64,000 bases of DNA from Shimia sp. R9_2. GTDB taxonomy: Bacteria; Pseudomonadota; Alphaproteobacteria; Rhodobacterales; Rhodobacteraceae. Position numbers and translations under genes: made by a program. This document shows positions 21,620 through 29,393 of this stretch, one piece after another. The notes beneath the pieces are model-generated. The model did no database searches. It saw only the letters and a list, made by a program, of their open reading frames with translations, and was not told where the DNA came from. Where the stretch lies: the NCBI RefSeq assembly GCF_017743735.1, contig NZ_JAGHRO010000002.1:124001-188000 (forward strand), in the 5' to 3' direction. The first letter of the stretch is position 1. The number at the start of each line of letters is the position of its first letter.

Positions 21620-23569
21620 ATGGCTGATATTTCCCTTACATTTCCTGATGGTAACACGCGTTCTTTCGCAGCAGGAGTGACCCCTGCCGAAGTCGCAAGC
21701 TCCATCTCCACCTCGCTTGGCAAAAAAGCGATCTCTGCCACTGTCGATGGCAAACACTGGGATCTGCAATGGCCGATTGAGGCCGATGCCAGCATCGCAA
21801 TCAACACAATCAAAGACAGCGACGCCGAGGCGCTCGAACTGATCCGCCACGACTGCGCACACGTGATGGCCCGCGCGGTTCAAGAAATCTGGCCCGATGT
21901 AAAAGTCACCATCGGCCCGGTGATCGAGCACGGCTGGTACTATGACTTTGACCGTGAAGAGCCCTTCACACCGGAAGATCTCGGCCTCATCGAAAAGAAG
22001 ATGAAAGAGATCATCAACAAACGCGAGCCTGTGACCACCGAGGTCTGGGAACGCGAGCGTGCGGTAAAACATTATCAGGCCAACAACGAGCCTTATAAAG
22101 TGGAGCTGATCGAAGCCATCCCCGGTGACGAGCCCCTGCGTATGTACTGGCACGGCCACTGGCAGGATCTCTGCCGCGGCCCGCACCTGCAGCATACCGG
22201 CCAGATCCCCGCGGATGCATTCAAGCTGATGAGCGTGGCCGGTGCCTACTGGCGCGGCGATTCCGATCGCGCGATGTTGCAGCGTATCTATGGCGTGGCC
22301 TTCAAAAACAAAGAAGACCTCAAAGCTCACCTGCATATGCTGGAAGAGGCTGAAAAACGCGATCATCGCCGCTTGGGCCGCGAGATGAACCTGTTCCATA
22401 TGCAGGAAGAGGCGCCCGGACAGATCTTCTGGCACCCCAATGGCTGGACAGTTTACACCGAGCTGCAAGACTACATGCGCCGCAAACAAAAGCGCGGTGG
22501 CTATGTAGAGGTGAACACCCCGCAAGTGGTGGACCGTAAGCTCTGGGAAGCCTCCGGTCACTGGGACAAGTATCAGGAAAACATGTTCATCGTCGAAGTG
22601 GACGAGGATCATGCCCGAGAAAAGGCCGTGAACGCGCTGAAGCCGATGAACTGCCCCTGCCACGTGCAGATCTTTAATCAGGGTCTGAAATCCTACCGCG
22701 ATCTGCCTTTGCGGATTGCTGAATTCGGCTCCTGTGCGCGTTACGAGCCTTCCGGTGCTCTGCACGGGATCATGCGTGTGCGCGGCTTTACGCAGGACGA
22801 TGGCCACATCTTCTGTGCTGAGGATGAGATCACTTCGGAAACCAAGAAGTTCATCGACTTCCTGTCAGAGGTCTATTCCGATCTCGGCTTTGACAACTGG
22901 ACCATCAAGCTCTCCACCCGCCCGGAAAAGCGTATCGGCTCTGACGAAAGCTGGGACTACGCTGAAAAGGCGCTTGGCGATGCCTGCAACGCGGCTGGCC
23001 ACGAGTTTGAGATCCTGGAAGGCGAAGGCGCGTTTTATGGCCCCAAGCTGGAATTCACCCTGACAGATGCCATCGGCCGGAACTGGCAATGCGGCACCCT
23101 TCAGGTGGACCCCAACCTGCCGGAACGTCTAGATGCGACCTACATTGGTGCGGACGGTGAGAAGCACCGCCCTATCATGCTGCACCGCGCGACACTGGGC
23201 TCATTTGAGCGCTTCATCGGCATTCTGATCGAAGAGCACGCTGGCAAACTGCCGTTCTGGCTTGCACCGCGTCAGGTGGTTGTTGCGGCGATTGTATCTG
23301 ATGCGGATGACTATTGCCTAGAAGTTGTCGAGGCGCTCAAAGCCGCTGGCGTGCGGGCAGAAGCTGACCTGCGCAACGAGAAGATCAACTACAAAGTTCG
23401 CGAGCACTCCGTCGGCAAGGTTCCGGTGATTTTGGCCATCGGGAAAAAAGAAGTCGAAGAGCGCACCGTATCCACCCGCCGCCTGGGTGAGAAACAAAGC
23501 AAGGTGCAAAGCTTGGATGAAATCGTGGCGCAGCTGTCGGTCGAAGCAACCCCGCCCGACATGCAGTGA
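21620..23569 (+). CDS. thrS: Threonyl-tRNA synthetase
   Basis: Charges tRNA-Thr. The 649-aa product has the full bacterial domain set: TGS domain (about 1-62), editing domain with [15 protein letters not shown] (about 74-90), class II catalytic core with [13 protein letters not shown] (zinc cysteine) and [21 protein letters not shown], motif 3 ([24 protein letters not shown]), and a C-terminal anticodon-binding domain. The start follows GAGGAGC. A strong terminator comes 23 nt after the stop. Confidence 0.98.
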
Positions 23570-23591
23570 TTGCTCCACACGACAAGTTCTT

Positions 23592-23620
23592 AAATGCGGC
23601 GCTCTGAGCGCCGCATTTTT
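23592..23620 (+). terminator. thrS terminator
   Basis: A perfect 12-bp stem AAATGCGGCGCT / AGCGCCGCATTT with loop CTG, followed by TT. Confidence 0.88.
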
Positions 23621-24012
23621 CATTTAAGGCGCAGTCCAAGGCGACAAAAGCTGAAACATTTGCAAGCCATTGCACTATTTTGGGGGTCGTAAGGCTTTGC
23701 CTGCCACCGAAAATTGTAACAATTGCCAGTGATTTTCGGCGAGACCTCGCAACTGCTGGTCGGCGAAACCCTGCGCAAGCGCCAAAATCCCCGCAGTTTT
23801 ACCCGGAAAGTCCCCCAGCATTCACAAGAGATTCACCAACAGTTGCAGATCTTTGCCAGCTTCCCGACCACAGTGTTACATGAGATAACATCGCCGTGGC
23901 ACACAGTCGTGTGATTGGTAAGTGACCTGCGCGGCGACCTATGTTGTAGTCATGCTAAGGCGCAAACGCCGCGTCTGGCCGAATTTAACTGTATCAAGAG
24001 GGAAGAGATACA
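23621..24012. other. Gene-free stretch upstream of bufA
   Basis: About 390 nt between the thrS terminator and the bufferin precursor. I see no convincing gene or RNA. There is a short inverted repeat TGTTA-N7-TAACA at 23874-23890 and a ribosome site GAGGGAAGAG before the ATG at 24013. This must hold the promoter of the bufferin operon; no sigma-factor box is clear enough to name. Confidence 0.5.
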
Positions 24013-24318
24013 ATGTCCACAACCGTAAAAACTCTCGCCGTTGCCGGCGCCGTCGCAGCAGCCCTGACCGCGCACGCAACCACCGCATCCGCCGCAGGCA
24101 AAGAGAAATGCTACGGTGTGTCTCTGGCAGGCGCCAATGACTGCGCCGCCGGTCCTGGCACCACCTGCGCAGGCACCTCCACCGTTGATTACCAGGGCAA
24201 CGCATGGAAACTGGTTGACGCAGGCACCTGCGTAGACATGGAACTGCCAGCACTGGCAGACGGCACCCCACGTGTCGGCTCCCTGGAAGCGCTGGATCGC
24301 GACCTGCCGAAGAGCTAA
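24013..24318 (+). CDS. bufA: Bufferin precursor peptide BufA1 (DUF2282)
   Basis: A 101-aa exported small protein. The signal peptide covers about residues 1-27 (hydrophobic [12 protein letters not shown], ending ATTASA). The mature part has exactly four Cys, at residues 33 (KEKCYGV), 44 (NDCAAG), 52 (TTCAGTS) and 73 (AGTCVDM). This is the DUF2282 pattern of bufferins, whose cysteines are modified by the BufB/BufC pair so that the peptide binds copper. BufB, BufC and DoxX genes follow, as in known loci. Copper as the metal and the modification are inferred from the family. Confidence 0.92.
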
Positions 24319-24327
24319 GGCCTTCTT

Positions 24328-24356
24328 GCGAAGCCCCGCCCCACATGGGGCTTCGC
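24328..24356 (+). terminator. Hairpin between bufA and bufB
   Basis: Stem GCGAAGCCCC / GGGGCTTCGC starting 10 nt after the bufA stop, followed by only a weak ATTTCC tail. It probably reduces read-through or stabilises the upstream message, giving more precursor than enzyme. Confidence 0.65.
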
Positions 24357-24598
24357 ATTTCCCCTGCCATATTGGCGCAAGGGACCAAGAACTGTCATAC
24401 TACGCTCAACGGGCAGCACTCAGCAGCCCAGCGTGGTATAAAGGATCAAGCACGATGGCGCATCATGCCAGGCATTCTTATTTGAAAATTTCCGCGCCAG
24501 CCGCCAGTGAAATTACCCAGTGAAATTCTACAGAGCCCAAAAGCCACCACTCCAAAAGAACCTGCCCCCAACACCTGCCACAAGAACAAGGTGACGCG

Positions 24599-25468
24599 AT
24601 GTTTGACGCACAACAAACGCCCCGCAAATTGCCCAACCGCCCCGGCGTCGGCTACAAGCCGCAGCACTACGCCGATCTGATCCAAGATCCCGGCACCGTG
24701 GGCTGGCTCGAAATTCACGCTGAGAACTATATGGGGGATGGCGGTCGCCCCATCGCGCAACTCCGCCAGTTGTCTGAGCGTTTTCCGATTTCCGTCCATG
24801 GCGTTGGTTTGTCAATCGGTGGCGAAGGCGCACTTGACGCCGACCACCTTGCGCGCCTCAAGCACCTTGTTGACTGGCTAAACCCAACCGTTTTTTCTGA
24901 ACACTTGGCTTGGAGCACCCATGATGGCGCGTTTTTGAACGATCTGTTGCCCTTGCCCTACACCGACGCCACGCTCCAGCGCGTGTGCGACCACATCAAC
25001 CAGCTGCAAGACACCATCAATCGCCAGATGATGCTGGAGAACCCGTCCAGCTATTTGGCGTTCGATGAAAGCACCTGGTCGGAACCTGATTTTCTGCGGG
25101 AAGTTGCCAAGCGCACAGGATGTGGATTGCTGCTGGATGTGAACAACGTTTTTGTGTCCGCAACCAACCTGGACTACGATCCCCGCGCCTACATTGCAGA
25201 TTATCCGCTCGACATGGTCGGTGAAATTCACCTCGGCGGCCATGATGAAGACGAAGATGATCACGGCAAGCCACTGCTTATCGACAGCCACGGCGCACCT
25301 ATTGTTGATCCTGTATGGGCGCTGCTTGACCACACCCTTTCCTTGTCTGGCCCCAAACCGATCCTGATCGAGTGGGACACCGATGTGCCGGGATGGCCGA
25401 TCCTGCATGACGAAGCGCTGCGCGCAGATGCAGCCCTTGCCAAGCTTACCACCGGTGTTGCGGCATGA
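24599..25468 (+). CDS. bufB: MNIO-family peptide-modifying enzyme BufB (DUF692)
   Basis: A 289-aa TIM-barrel enzyme of the multinuclear non-haem iron oxidase (DUF692) family, which oxidatively modifies cysteines of peptide precursors. Likely iron ligands are visible: ISVHGVGLS, VFSEHLAW, LENPSSYL, LLLDVNNVFV, GEIHLGGHDED, LLIDSHGAP and LIEWDTDVP. The start at ATG 24599 follows CAAGGTGAC. It lies 280 nt after bufA and overlaps bufC by 4 nt, so enzyme and partner are co-translated. It should act on BufA in the cytoplasm before export. Confidence 0.94.
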   Translation: MFDAQQTPRKLPNRPGVGYKPQHYADLIQDPGTVGWLEIHAENYMGDGGRPIAQLRQLSERFPISVHGVGLSIGGEGALDADHLARLKHLVDWLNPTVFSEHLAWSTHDGAFLNDLLPLPYTDATLQRVCDHINQLQDTINRQMMLENPSSYLAFDESTWSEPDFLREVAKRTGCGLLLDVNNVFVSATNLDYDPRAYIADYPLDMVGEIHLGGHDEDEDDHGKPLLIDSHGAPIVDPVWALLDHTLSLSGPKPILIEWDTDVPGWPILHDEALRADAALAKLTTGVAA

Positions 25469-26217
25469 ACGTCTCCCAGAACGAATTTCGCGGCGCGATC
25501 TTTGATGGCGGACGCGCGCGGCCTGAAGGCCTGTCCGATGCCAAAGGTCAGCCTGCCGGGCGGCGGTTTGACGTCTATCGCAACAATGTGGCCGTCTCTC
25601 TGACAGAAGCGCTTGCCACCGGTTTTCCGACCATCGCCAAACTCATTGGCAGTGAGAACTTCAATGCGATTGCAGGCGTGTTTCTGCGCCAATCGCCACC
25701 GTCCTCGCCGATGATGATGCATTATGGCGAAGACTTTCCGGATTTTCTGGCGGGCTTTGAGCCTCTGGCACATCTCGGCTACCTCGCAGATGTCGCACGC
25801 CTTGAGATGGCGATGCGCCGCTCCTACCACGCAGCGGACGCAGAAGCGGTGAACCCCGAAGCCCTAGCGGCCCACCCGCCTGAGCGCCTCACCGAACTGG
25901 TAATGACCTTCGCCCCCTCGGTTAAACTCCTGCGCTCTCCCTGGCCGATCCACGCCATTTGGGCATTCAATATGCAAGATGGCCCAAAGCCTGAAGCCGG
26001 AGGCCAGGATGTTATCATCCTGCGCCCTGAATATGATCCGGTCCCCCACGCTTTGGCACCCGGAGCCTATGAATTTATCACCGCGCTCACCGCGGGCGGC
26101 ACACTGGGCGCCGCGGCTGCTGTCGCAACCGACGAAGTGGCTGAATTTGACCTGAGCGCCACGCTCGGCCTACTCCTAACGGGCAACGCCCTGATTTCTA
26201 TTGATTTACCATCCTAA
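25465..26217 (+). CDS. bufC: BufC, DUF2063 partner of the MNIO enzyme
   Basis: A 250-aa protein of the DUF2063 (putative DNA-binding/RiPP-recognition-like) family. The N-terminal QNEFRGAIFDG and RRFDVYRNNVAVSLTEAL are the family signature, followed by FPTIAKLIGSENFNAIAGVFL. The old 'DNA-binding' label is not supported; in MNIO systems this partner recognises the precursor and delivers it to the oxidase. Its start overlaps bufB's stop (ATGA). Confidence 0.9.
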   Translation: MNVSQNEFRGAIFDGGRARPEGLSDAKGQPAGRRFDVYRNNVAVSLTEALATGFPTIAKLIGSENFNAIAGVFLRQSPPSSPMMMHYGEDFPDFLAGFEPLAHLGYLADVARLEMAMRRSYHAADAEAVNPEALAAHPPERLTELVMTFAPSVKLLRSPWPIHAIWAFNMQDGPKPEAGGQDVIILRPEYDPVPHALAPGAYEFITALTAGGTLGAAAAVATDEVAEFDLSATLGLLLTGNALISIDLPS

Positions 26218-26229
26218 TCCGAGGATCGC

Positions 26230-26754
26230 ATGACACGTATACTGGACCAATACACCGACCTTCTTGACCGGCTTGACCGTCTGGATTGGCTCGTTCCCAC
26301 GCTGGCCCGCCTGAGCTTTCTGGCAGTGCTGTTCTTCTATTTCTGGAACTCGGCAATGCTGAAGATCGACGGTTCGATCTTCTCCCCGTCTTCCGGTGCA
26401 TTCGGGCAGATTTTCCCAAAAGCAGCCGAAGCCGTGCTCTGGGACGTCACTCAAATGAACTTCTTACAGCGCATTGTGATCCTTGCTGGCACGATTGCTG
26501 AGTTTGTTCTTCCTCTGCTGATCGTTTTTGGTCTGCTGACCCGCCTCGCCGCAGCTGGCATGATCGGCTTCATCATTGTTCAAACGCTGGTGGACGTGAC
26601 GGGCCACGGTGTTGCCCTTGGCGGTCTGTTTGACAGCGCTCAGGGTCTGATCGACCAGCGTGTGATGTGGATCCTGCTCTTTGTGGTGCTGGTCTTCAAA
26701 GGCGCTGGCCCAATCTCGATTGACGCCCTGTTCCGCAAGCCTTCCAGAGACTGA
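26230..26754 (+). CDS. DoxX-family membrane protein of the bufferin operon
   Basis: A 174-aa inner-membrane protein with four hydrophobic helices (about 25-43, 78-103, 105-125 and 138-155), the size and layout of the DoxX family. It starts 12 nt after bufC with GAGGATCGC upstream. DoxX-like genes often accompany MNIO/DUF2063 pairs; a redox or membrane role is assumed but not shown. A strong terminator follows, closing the operon. Confidence 0.85.
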   Translation: MTRILDQYTDLLDRLDRLDWLVPTLARLSFLAVLFFYFWNSAMLKIDGSIFSPSSGAFGQIFPKAAEAVLWDVTQMNFLQRIVILAGTIAEFVLPLLIVFGLLTRLAAAGMIGFIIVQTLVDVTGHGVALGGLFDSAQGLIDQRVMWILLFVVLVFKGAGPISIDALFRKPSRD

Positions 26755-26782
26755 TCCGGGCGGCCACTTACATACAAAAAAC

Positions 26783-26813
26783 AAAAGCCCGCGAGACAAT
26801 CGCGGGCTTTTTT
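26783..26813 (+). terminator. Terminator of the bufferin operon
   Basis: Stem AAAAGCCCGCG / CGCGGGCTTTT with seven intervening bases, then TT. It is a textbook intrinsic terminator 28 nt after the DoxX stop. Confidence 0.9.
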
Positions 26814-26901
26814 GATCTGCTCTGGCACCCTAACGAAACTCAATTTGTCCCGACTGAAAAGACTAAGGCACCGAGAGAAATTGAGCTCGATATTCGCGCC
26901 C

Positions 26902-27216
26902 TTAGCTAAGTTCGGCCTGCACGTCTTTTCCCCAACCGAGGTAATAGCTTCCGCCGCGCTCTATAAGCGGACGTTTCATCAGGGTGGGATGCGCTTTCAA
27001 AAGCGCAATCGGATCTTCTGAGCGTTCGTCTTCGCTCAAATTTCTCCATGTGGTCGATTTCTTATTCACTAGATCATCTTTAAATTGTGTGTGTGCTATT
27101 TCTAACACCACATCAGGAACCCCATCCTGACGAACATCGACAAAGGCAACATCCCCCAATGTTTTCATTGCCTTACGACAGGTATCGCAATTTTTCAAAC
27201 CGTAGACAGTTGTCAT
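26902..27216 (-). CDS. ArsC/Spx-family (YffB-like) thioredoxin-fold protein
   Basis: A 104-aa protein from the ATG at 27214-27216 (MTTVYGLKNCDTC); earlier frame codons lack a ribosome site. The N-terminal NCDTCRKAMKTL gives the CxxC-type motif of the ArsC/Spx superfamily, with STTWRNLSEDER and HPTLMKRPLIE later in the chain, matching the YffB-like group. Members act as reductases or as regulators; arsenate reduction should not be assumed. Confidence 0.85.
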   Translation of the reverse strand: MTTVYGLKNCDTCRKAMKTLGDVAFVDVRQDGVPDVVLEIAHTQFKDDLVNKKSTTWRNLSEDERSEDPIALLKAHPTLMKRPLIERGGSYYLGWGKDVQAELS

Positions 27217-27424
27217 GTCACCCTCTTTGCATGGCCATAATGACCGTATAATCCAGTTCATTTCGGGTTTCACGTTGGTTTTGCTTGATTTTTGTCATCA
27301 CCATGCAATCCTCAGGCAGGCGCATTTGTTTCAATCTTCCGTAATCGTGCACTCGGAATTTGGGATTTCTGTTGCTCCGGCATTTTGCCGTAATTGACTA
27401 AAAGTGAATAAAGAGGAGAACGGT

Positions 27425-27631
27425 ATGCCACGCGGTACCGTAAAGTGGTTCAACACCACCAAAGGCTTCGGGTTCATCGAACCTGAAGAAGGCGGCAAAG
27501 ATGTCTTTGTCCATATTTCCGTTGTCGAACGGTCCGGACTTAAAGGTCTGTCCGACAACCAGAAAGTTGAATTTGAAATGACGCAAGGACGGGACGGCCG
27601 CGACATGGCGGGCGAACTCAAACTGCTTTAA
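27425..27631 (+). CDS. Cold-shock-domain protein (CspA family)
   Basis: A 68-aa single cold-shock domain binding RNA and single-stranded DNA. RNP1 (KGFGFIEP) and RNP2 (VFVHIS) motifs are intact, at residues about 14-21 and 31-36. The ATG at 27425 follows AGAGGAGAAC. The 5' region (27274-27424) is long for such a gene, as expected for leader-controlled csp genes, but no defined structure is claimed. Confidence 0.95.
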
Positions 27632-27636
27632 TGGAT

Positions 27637-27657
27637 TGGGGCGCCATTAGCGCCCCA
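27637..27657 (+). terminator. Hairpin after the cold-shock gene
   Basis: TGGGGCGC / GCGCCCCA stem with loop CATTA, 5 nt after the stop. There is no T-run, so termination may be incomplete. Confidence 0.5.
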
Positions 27658-27701
27658 TCCGCCCTGCGCTCCGCGCGCAAATCCCCTCCTTCAAAAATCT
27701 G

Positions 27702-27998
27702 CTATGAACAGCCCTTCGCACCAGGTGGACAGCTTGATGCTCTGTAGCCCCTGTGGCCCGTGCTCGCATTGACAAAACGCTCGGTGGTGTTAGGCGTACC
27801 ACAACAAATCACGCCACCCAATGTCACTGGCTGGAGCCCACTCGGGCAGTAATTTGTATAGGTCGGATAGGGATGGATCAGCACCCCTTCAGGCTGATTG
27901 ACCGGCCCAATGACCGGAGCATTGCTGCTCCAGCTCTGTGCCGAAAGCGGCGCGGCAAACATCAATGCAACTCCAGTGGCAAGCGAAAGGCATTTCAT
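27702..27998 (-). CDS. Small secreted protein of unknown function
   Basis: A 98-aa protein with a clear signal peptide (MKCLSLATGVALMFAAPLSA). The mature part is short and rich in Gly, Pro and Thr, with cysteines in NYCPSG, GVICCGTP and the C-terminal SSCPPGAKGCS. I do not recognise the family. The start codon has AATTGGAGCC upstream. It stands alone between the convergent cold-shock gene and folA. Confidence 0.65.
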   Translation of the reverse strand: MKCLSLATGVALMFAAPLSAQSWSSNAPVIGPVNQPEGVLIHPYPTYTNYCPSGLQPVTLGGVICCGTPNTTERFVNASTGHRGYRASSCPPGAKGCS

Positions 27999-28115
27999 AA
28001 AACACAGGCTCCAATTGTTGTTAGAAACATAGATAGCTTTGGCTAAGCTACTGCACGCGTTTGAAAACTGTCAAATTCGCAGACACGCGCCACTGTGATT
28101 TTGAAAGCCAGTCAC

Positions 28116-28610
28116 TCACGCTGCGGCAGTTTTAGAAACACGCAAATACTCACGCACCGTACAGCTCGGTGTGGCGCCCTCAAGCGGTCGGCTTGTGATG
28201 AGCTGCCACTTCGCAGGATCAAACTCCGGAAAGAAGGTGTCCGCGTCATTAATCTCGGTCTCGACATCCGTGATCAGCAGACGATGCGCGACATTGAGCA
28301 TTTCCTTGTAAATGCCCGCGCCGCCTATGCCGTAGATCCGATCATAGCCTTGCGCTGTGGCATAGTCGACAGCAGCATCAATCGAGGGCACCACAATGTC
28401 CGCCGCATCCGGCTGTGAAGCCACCACAATATTCAGCCGATTTGACAGCGGCTTTACCGGCAGACTGTCCCAGGTGTTGCGTCCCATAATCAGGGCGCCT
28501 CCGGTGGTCTCGCGCTGAAACAGTTTAAAGTCCTGTGGAATGCGCCATGGTATGTCCCCATCCCGCCCAATCGCACCGTTTTGGGCCCGTGCAACAACAA
28601 GTGTGATCAT
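28116..28610 (-). CDS. folA: Dihydrofolate reductase
   Basis: A 164-aa NADPH-dependent enzyme regenerating tetrahydrofolate. Signatures: LVVARAQNGAIGRDGDIPWRIPQDF (active-site Asp in the substrate site), ALIMGRNTWDSLP and IYGIGGAGIYKEML. It follows thyA by 3 nt on the same strand, the classic thyA-folA pair, coupling dTMP synthesis to folate recycling. Confidence 0.97.
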   Translation of the reverse strand: MITLVVARAQNGAIGRDGDIPWRIPQDFKLFQRETTGGALIMGRNTWDSLPVKPLSNRLNIVVASQPDAADIVVPSIDAAVDYATAQGYDRIYGIGGAGIYKEMLNVAHRLLITDVETEINDADTFFPEFDPAKWQLITSRPLEGATPSCTVREYLRVSKTAAA

Positions 28611-28613
28611 AGT

Positions 28614-29393
28614 TTACACCGCCACTGGTGCGGAAATGGCCGCGTCCGGCTCATATCCAACAATTTCAAAATCCTCGAAGGTAAAGTCAAAGATCGACTT
28701 CACATCCCGCTTAATCACCAATTTCGGCAGCGCCTTTGGTGTGCGTGTCAGCTGCAGATTTACCTGCTCCATGTGATTGGAATAGATGTGGGCATCGCCA
28801 ACGGAATGCACAAAATCCCCAACCTCATAACCGGTCACATGCGCCAGCATATGCTGCAGCAGCGCGTAGGAGGCGATGTTGAACGGCACGCCCAGGAACA
28901 TGTCGGCAGAGCGCTGATAAAGTTGCAGGTGCAATTTGCCATTCAGCACCCGCACCTGCCACATGGTGTGGCACGGCGGCAGCGCCATATCGGGCACATC
29001 CTGCGGGTTCCAGGCAGAGACTATCAAACGGCGGCTGTCAGGCGAGGTTTTGATCATCTCAACCAGCGTTTCAATCTGATCTACGCCGCCAAAATCGCGC
29101 CACTGCTTGCCGTAAACCGGTCCAAGATCCCCGTTTTCATCGGCCCATTCGTCCCAGATGGTGACCCGATTGTCTTGCAAGTACTTGATGTTGGTGTCGC
29201 CTGCGAGAAACCACAGCAATTCATGAATGATCCCGCGCAGGTAAAGCTTCTTGGTGGTCACCAAAGGAAAGCCATCTGCGAGGCCATAGCGCATCTGCAT
29301 CCCGAAATAAGAACGCGTGCCCGTGCCTGTCCGGTCGCCCGTGTCTTCGCCAAACTCCAAAATGGTCTTCAATGCATCATGATATTGTTGCAC
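28614..29393 (-). CDS. thyA: Thymidylate synthase
   Basis: A 259-aa enzyme converting dUMP to dTMP with methylene-THF. The catalytic Cys is in [10 protein letters not shown], with [16 protein letters not shown] upstream and [23 protein letters not shown] downstream, all characteristic of ThyA (not ThyX). The start at 29391-29393 is the only one in frame. It is the upstream gene of the thyA-folA operon. Confidence 0.97.

Follow-up and report, generated by a model that had tools for sequence, protein, structure and literature searches.

The 64,000-nucleotide stretch of the Shimia sp. R9_2 genome analysed here (NZ_JAGHRO010000002.1, positions 124,001 to 188,000; hereafter the window) carries four genes, bufA, bufB, bufC and doxX, that very probably form a bufferin-1 (Buf1) operon for a thiooxazole-modified, exported copper peptide, in which an RNA hairpin 3′ of bufA would raise the bufA message above that of bufBC-doxX. 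The analysis shows the gene families, the iron ligands of the BufB enzyme, the fold of its partner BufC, the conserved gene order, the hairpin and a conserved element upstream of bufA; copper binding and the thiooxazoles are inferred from published relatives. The operon itself belongs to an already described bufferin type, and the hairpin looks new. An earlier note on this DNA had called a bufferin-type operon, and the coordinates that it gave for the operon, the 101-amino-acid length of the precursor, its cysteine positions and the 4-nt overlap of bufC with the end of bufB (ATGA, bufC starting at 25465) are exact. Its anatomy of the locus was right as to the genes and left undescribed the 280-nt gap between bufA and bufB, the hairpin within that gap, the conserved upstream element and the probable scar of a second precursor gene (Table 1).

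The hairpin in the bufA-bufB gap of the window is strong: the 70-nt stretch that holds it together with a second small stem folds at −32.9 kcal/mol (z −4.17), which none of 200 shuffles equalled. We surveyed the same position in 113 loci, made up of 36 of a first set of 38 (the window and 37 fetched loci, less two orphan bufA loci without bufB) and 77 of 80 named loci (the best 80 of 591, less one without bufA and two duplicates). Hairpins qualified with a stem of at least 9 bp and at least 6 G–C pairs; intervals 3′ of bufA, taken after the first copy where two exist, were limited by the next gene and measured 40 to 70 nt, and all other intervals spanned 70 nt. A qualifying GC-rich hairpin follows bufA in 98 of the 113 loci, as against 36 of 1130 dinucleotide shuffles, the loci being related and hence not independent cases. 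Elsewhere, qualifying stems were found 3′ of bufB in 2/113 loci, 3′ of bufC in 1/111, 3′ of doxX in 19/111, upstream of bufA in 3/112 and 3′ of second bufA copies in 2/17. The best stems begin with 97 different 8-mers among the 113 loci.

Pairing in these stems is maintained through sequence change. Among the 14 of 25 same-genus loci selected as alignable, both partners have changed in 5 of 13 pairs (1.8 on average in shuffles, 2 of 500 of which were as high), and the covariation score of 0.160 was reached by none of 500 shuffles (mean 0.109). Paired cells make up 82.9% of the hairpin alignment as against 31–52% of versions in which it was slid; one slid version also gave five two-sided pairs, yet scored 0.046 with 41% of its cells paired. 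Another 299 Pseudomonadota genomes were then drawn, of which 63 had DUF2282, and the 29 best loci, the window's own excluded, were examined for the hairpin. It was present in 5/5 loci from other members of the family (some of which may also be in the named set) and in the single same-genus locus, which was already in the set; loci from other Alphaproteobacteria had it in 4 cases, lacked it in 5, had too short a gap in 3 and no downstream bufB in 3, and other classes gave 0/8 (3 without it, 5 with short gaps). These counts indicate that the hairpin belongs mainly to the family.

The position of the hairpin suggested a comparison with the puf operon of Rhodobacter, in which an intercistronic hairpin sets the ratio of products through segmental mRNA stability (PMC6238624, which cites a 1987 hairpin-deletion study by title; this and all papers below are cited by PubMed Central accession). 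Both operons, from the same bacterial order, place a stem-loop between upstream genes in high demand and downstream genes in low demand; the puf and buf genes are unrelated, and the likeness concerns the placement of the hairpin among the genes rather than message ratio or processing. The bufA-bufB gap has a median of 70 nt and is shorter than 100 nt in 69 of 79 named loci (from the best 80 of 591). A promoter of their own for bufBC would hardly fit there, so that these genes would be reached by read-through. Together with this short gap, the presence of at least 5 T in the 8 bases past the stem in only 4 of the 98 qualifying hairpins indicates that in most relatives the hairpin does not end transcription completely. 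The buf hairpin is thus, as in puf, a stem-loop between cistrons that has apparently been kept by selection and is unlike a normal terminator. We think that, in the manner of the puf hairpin, it would let the cell make precursor in excess of enzyme, probably through segmental message stability.

The main rival to this stability reading is that the hairpin acts as a leaky terminator, at which some transcripts stop after bufA and the rest read through into bufBC. That arrangement would likewise yield more bufA message, through transcription rather than stability, and we regard it as a real possibility that falls clearly short of even. It agrees with the placement of the hairpin between precursor and enzyme genes and with the U-rich tail seen in those 4 of 98 relatives (for example L064); the other 94 qualifying hairpins are without such a tail, and in the window itself the contrast is with the hairpin 3′ of doxX, where a 12-bp stem is followed by a good T-tract (z −3.55, 1 of 200 shuffles equal), as the earlier note had recognized in placing a terminator there. 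A consensus terminator scan of 23000–28000 found 3 terminator-like sites against a shuffle mean of 6.4 and, being below expectation, is uninformative on its own.

The words hairpin, terminator and stem-loop do not occur in the available parts of the bufferin-related texts searched (stem-loop not asked of PMC8224329), a search that did not take in the 2024 founding paper or the 2026 paper that treats the signal peptide as a leader; terms in attenuat- and stoichiometr- are likewise unmentioned in one such text. Literature searches on Roseobacter bufferins and on attenuators after precursors of ribosomally synthesized and post-translationally modified peptides (RiPPs) returned nothing useful. The hairpin may already be in print in the 2024 or the 2026 paper.

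The protein families identify the operon. Hidden Markov model searches, which the earlier note had proposed as a check, place its genes in DUF2282, DUF692 and DUF2063. BufB matches PF05114 (MbnB_TglH_ChrH) in Pfam at 3.4e-103 and exceeds the equivalog cut-off of NCBIfam NF050167 MNIO_BufB (368.9 against 310 bits), while staying below the NCBIfam cut-offs of HvfB, ApyH, MbnB and ChrH; its relatives in the PDB are 3bww (9.7e-44), TglH and MbnB. The nine iron ligands of TglH named in PMC10880893 all align to identical residues in BufB (H67, H102, E147, D180, N183, H211, D229, H231 and E258), and these are invariant across 16 BufB sequences, in agreement with the likely ligands that had been pointed out in this enzyme. 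BufC matches DUF2063 in Pfam (PF09836, 2.5e-24), and a sequence search of the PDB gave nothing significant. Its AlphaFold2 model, built from 16 sequences, has a mean predicted local distance difference test score (pLDDT) of 90.8, and the best Foldseek matches of the model are TglI (8hci_A, 6.7e-6; 8hi7_A, 9.2e-6) and NGO1945 (3dee, 1.0e-3), the last named as PME1 in PMC12668002. The model therefore predicts BufC to be a DUF2063 partner protein with a RiPP recognition element (RRE), of PME type 1. DoxX, which belongs to the core of many Buf1 operons, has four hydrophobic segments.

BufA carries cysteines at residues 33, 44, 52 and 73, all invariant among 17 aligned precursors, and has a single hydrophobic segment at residues 8–22, with Lys6 before it and an Ala-x-Ala end read by eye, which suggests a Sec signal. 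Its C-terminal tail (24241–24315) is well conserved and extends past the DUF2282 profile. The genome has one DUF2282 gene and one MNIO gene. In Buf1, only the central cysteine pair (here 44 and 52) is modified, to 5-thiooxazoles, and the outer pair (here 33 and 73) is joined as a disulphide (PMC12452194, PMC12668002); each modified cysteine loses 4 H (PMC12668002). By analogy with these published relatives, BufA of the window would be modified and copper-binding. Its precursor would carry a Sec signal; in the cytoplasm BufB, the iron enzyme, and its partner BufC would oxidize Cys44 and Cys52 to 5-thiooxazoles; after export and signal cleavage a Cys33–Cys73 disulphide would form, and mature BufA would bind excess copper in the periplasm. 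DoxX would be an accessory membrane protein. All the buf genes would lie behind one promoter with the conserved upstream element, and the hairpin 3′ of bufA would keep the bufA message above that of bufBC-doxX, supplying much precursor per enzyme. The precursor family, enzymes, 5-thiooxazole, copper and DoxX are covered by existing work (PMC12452194, PMC12668002, PMC13419390, PMC12538549, PMC3511200, PMC8224329, PMC5413113), and the bufferin genes of Caulobacter rise under copper stress (PMC8224329).

Several observations weigh against this assignment and mechanism. BufC scores 45.4 bits against an NCBIfam HvfC cut-off of 142; DoxX barely passes its Pfam cut-off (PF07681, 24.0 against 23.6 bits, 6.3e-5) and falls below that of HvfX in NCBIfam (23.8 against 80 bits); AlphaFold2 modelled BufA poorly (mean pLDDT 53.3), so that the disulphide cannot be judged from the model; 15 of the 113 loci lie below the hairpin threshold, and outside the family the hairpin is patchy; and a related Microbulbifer cluster was silent under added copper, its authors being hesitant about a protective role (PMC12538549). 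The Microbulbifer result also speaks for a bufferin whose main job is something other than copper, namely another metal or oxidative or sulphur stress, as do the presence of DoxX, which suggests other stresses, the related gig operons named for gold (PMC12452194) and the response of the Caulobacter SigF genes to chromium and cadmium (PMC3511200). Characterized 5-thiooxazole peptides generally bind copper (PMC12668002), and we consider a non-copper role unlikely.

Among known systems the closest is Buf1 of Caulobacter vibrioides (CC3254–CC3257), which shares the four-cysteine DUF2282 precursor, the MNIO, the DUF2063 partner, DoxX and their order (PMC3511200, PMC12452194). The oxazolin operon hvfABCX of Haemophilus influenzae is alike in its MNIO, DUF2063 partner and DoxX-like HvfX and, if the present reading holds, in its Sec-exported precursor and 5-thiooxazole (PMC13419390); its precursor has EGKCG repeats, whereas BufA of the window is a DUF2282 protein with single cysteines and no EGKCG, and BufB scores 234.4 bits against the HvfB cut-off of 360, so we reject membership in that group. 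Methanobactin (mbnABC) likewise has an MNIO with a partner and conserved iron ligands. Unlike methanobactin, which serves to acquire copper (PMC12452194), the window has a precursor with a putative Sec signal, and BufB reaches only 55.1 bits against the MbnB cut-off of 325; this membership too is rejected.

The operon occupies a fixed place. The gene upstream (21620–23569) we take to be thrS, a name given from reading its sequence rather than from a family search; downstream, on the opposite strand, lies an ArsC/Spx-like gene (26902–27273, spx) and beyond it a cold-shock gene (27404–27631, csp). BufA relatives were found in 43 of 60 genomes searched: 25/25 of the same genus (own included), 9/11 other members of the family and 9/24 other members of the class. 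All 25 same-genus loci hold the complete set in the order thrS-bufABC-doxX-spx-csp. Among the named loci, the best 80 of 591, bufA is present in 79, bufC in 80, doxX in 78, thrS in 73, spx in 72 and csp in 70, with the full thrS-to-csp set in 63; these loci were taken with 3-kb flanks, and contig ends truncate some of them. We take the buf operon to be a vertically kept core locus.

Upstream of bufA, the conserved element aligns across the 25 same-genus loci and is probably an activator site adjoining the promoter, whose −10 hexamer may be TATGTT. At 0–1 mismatches, 23 of 24 same-genus genomes have a single copy of the pattern, always at bufA, and one (G013) has none. In the wider group, a score of at least 15 of 20 was reached by 77 of 116 upstream regions and by none of 580 mononucleotide shuffles, whose maximum was 14, a comparison that is partly circular because the consensus was drawn from same-genus members of the tested set. 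The bufA site is the only zero-mismatch match in the Shimia sp. R9_2 genome, where six others stand at 3 mismatches against two in a reversed control; the 24 genomes hold 13 further sites, all at 2 mismatches, and the recurrent one, viewed by eye in this genome, is protein-coding and belongs to the beginning of a reductase gene. We rejected a wider regulon and claim none.

This control appears to differ from that of Caulobacter Buf1, which is governed by SigF/NrsF through a GTAACC-N16-CGAA promoter. NrsF (PF06532) had no match in the 100% complete genome, the Caulobacter control being positive, and the interval from thrS to bufA (23570–24012) holds no SigF-type site even when up to 2 mismatches are allowed; SigF itself was not searched. 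The 33 matches in the whole window equal chance (32.45). On these grounds we rejected SigF/NrsF control. Further differences from Caulobacter are the upstream element, the hairpin after bufA and the tandem bufA2 of relatives. Regulation through the hairpin as a site bound by a protein or regulatory RNA that tunes bufBC expression is quite unlikely: its place is conserved, and Rfam gave no match across the whole window, which rejects a known RNA family and leaves an unknown riboregulator possible, but the stem letters vary as described above, and sequence readers usually need conserved letters.

Tandem precursors have already been noted in some bufferin clusters (PMC12452194). In 14 of the 24 other same-genus loci a second bufA lies between the hairpin and bufB, 10–32 nt before bufB, and these copies form one clade with two orphan bufA genes (support 99/98). 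The gaps of the window and of locus L034 are the longest among single-copy same-genus loci (280 and 281 nt against 61–167) and are homologous in sequence (score 90 against a shuffle maximum of 40). In the BufB tree the two group together (100/97) within a clade of ten (100/97) whose other eight members are all tandem; in the ThrS tree, unlike the BufB tree, they are not sisters, so that one loss and two cannot be told apart. L034 matches a profile of the bufA-bufA2 intergenic stretch (E 0.0015) and individual tandem loci (shuffles as good: L036, 0/200; L041, 4/200; L033, 17/200; L035, 18/200), a match that goes no further beyond the intergenic stretch than the first bases of bufA2. The window by itself gave no significant match, with at least 33 of 200 shuffles as good for each of 10 tandem loci and 0.5 bits against the intergenic profile (E 1.3; best shuffle 0.4 bits), and we rejected a bufA2 relic called from its sequence alone. 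The scar reading for the window follows instead from its homology to L034, the only one of the two to match the profile, and from the trees; on balance, bufA2 was probably lost by deletion in the window's lineage.

A degenerate or silent operon is very improbable here: the probable loss of bufA2 would favour it, whereas the four frames are open, the iron ligands are kept, BufB is 94% identical to that of its nearest relative, L034, and bufA is 97% identical to that of genome G024.

Loci L062 (G004) and L063 (G012) hold extra bufA paralogues related to the bufA2 clade, without the upstream block and with no bufB in the 7.2-kb stretch. Outside the genus, tandem bufA genes occur in the named loci L107 and L137 and in L060, whose second bufA lies outside the bufA2 clade and so arose separately.

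Beyond the cold-shock gene, 27702–27998 (− strand) encodes a 98-amino-acid protein with an apparent export signal and cysteines at 3, 51, 65, 66, 90 and 97. Pfam and NCBIfam searches of this protein gave no match; its relatives, present in 35 of 117 fetched loci, are mostly same-genus and adjoin the cold-shock gene. The genes at 28116–28610 and 28614–29393 (both − strand) are presumably those of dihydrofolate reductase and thymidylate synthase, as judged from sequence with no search.

Table 1 Features of the buf locus (positions are those of the window)
Feature	Position	Strand	Description
Conserved upstream element of bufA	23874-23918	+	dyad TGTTACATGAGATAACA (23874-23890), then GTGGCACACAGTCGTGTGATTGG (23896-23918)
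Possible −10 hexamer TATGTT	23940-23945	+	within conserved CCTAnTnT block
bufA	24013-24318	+	101 aa, DUF2282 bufferin-1 precursor; PF10048 2.4e-24
Intercistronic RNA hairpin	24327-24357	+	12 bp, 7-nt loop, arms 24327-24338 / 24346-24357, no U-tract
Rest of bufA-bufB gap	24358-24598	+	probable scar of deleted bufA2; homologous to L034 gap
Possible relic of bufA2 start ATGGCGCAT	24455-24463	+	would-be relic
bufB	24599-25468	+	289 aa, MNIO enzyme (DUF692/PF05114); NF050167 MNIO_BufB
bufC	25465-26217	+	250 aa, DUF2063 + predicted RRE-type partner protein; PF09836
doxX	26230-26754	+	174 aa, DoxX/HvfX-like membrane protein; PF07681
Terminator hairpin	26783-26811	.	between doxX and convergent spx-like gene

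A wider proposal, held with slightly less than even confidence, is that the bufferin operons of the Rhodobacteraceae combine a lineage-specific stoichiometry switch, a hairpin next to the precursor gene that is constant in place and shape but free in sequence and acts through puf-like stability, with a dedicated, SigF-independent promoter element, and that bufA2, where the genus has it, lies below the hairpin and is tied to the enzymes, the window's lineage having lost it. If this is true, the cell would make bufA1 and bufA2 products in unequal amounts. Bufferins, described recently, form a large class of copper-handling peptides, and in the present case their genes belong to the core of a group of marine bacteria, at a constant position on the chromosome and under control that looks different from that of the sole well-studied model. 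How one operon may give many substrate molecules per enzyme is a general question for such pathways, and the hairpin suggests an answer that can be tested.

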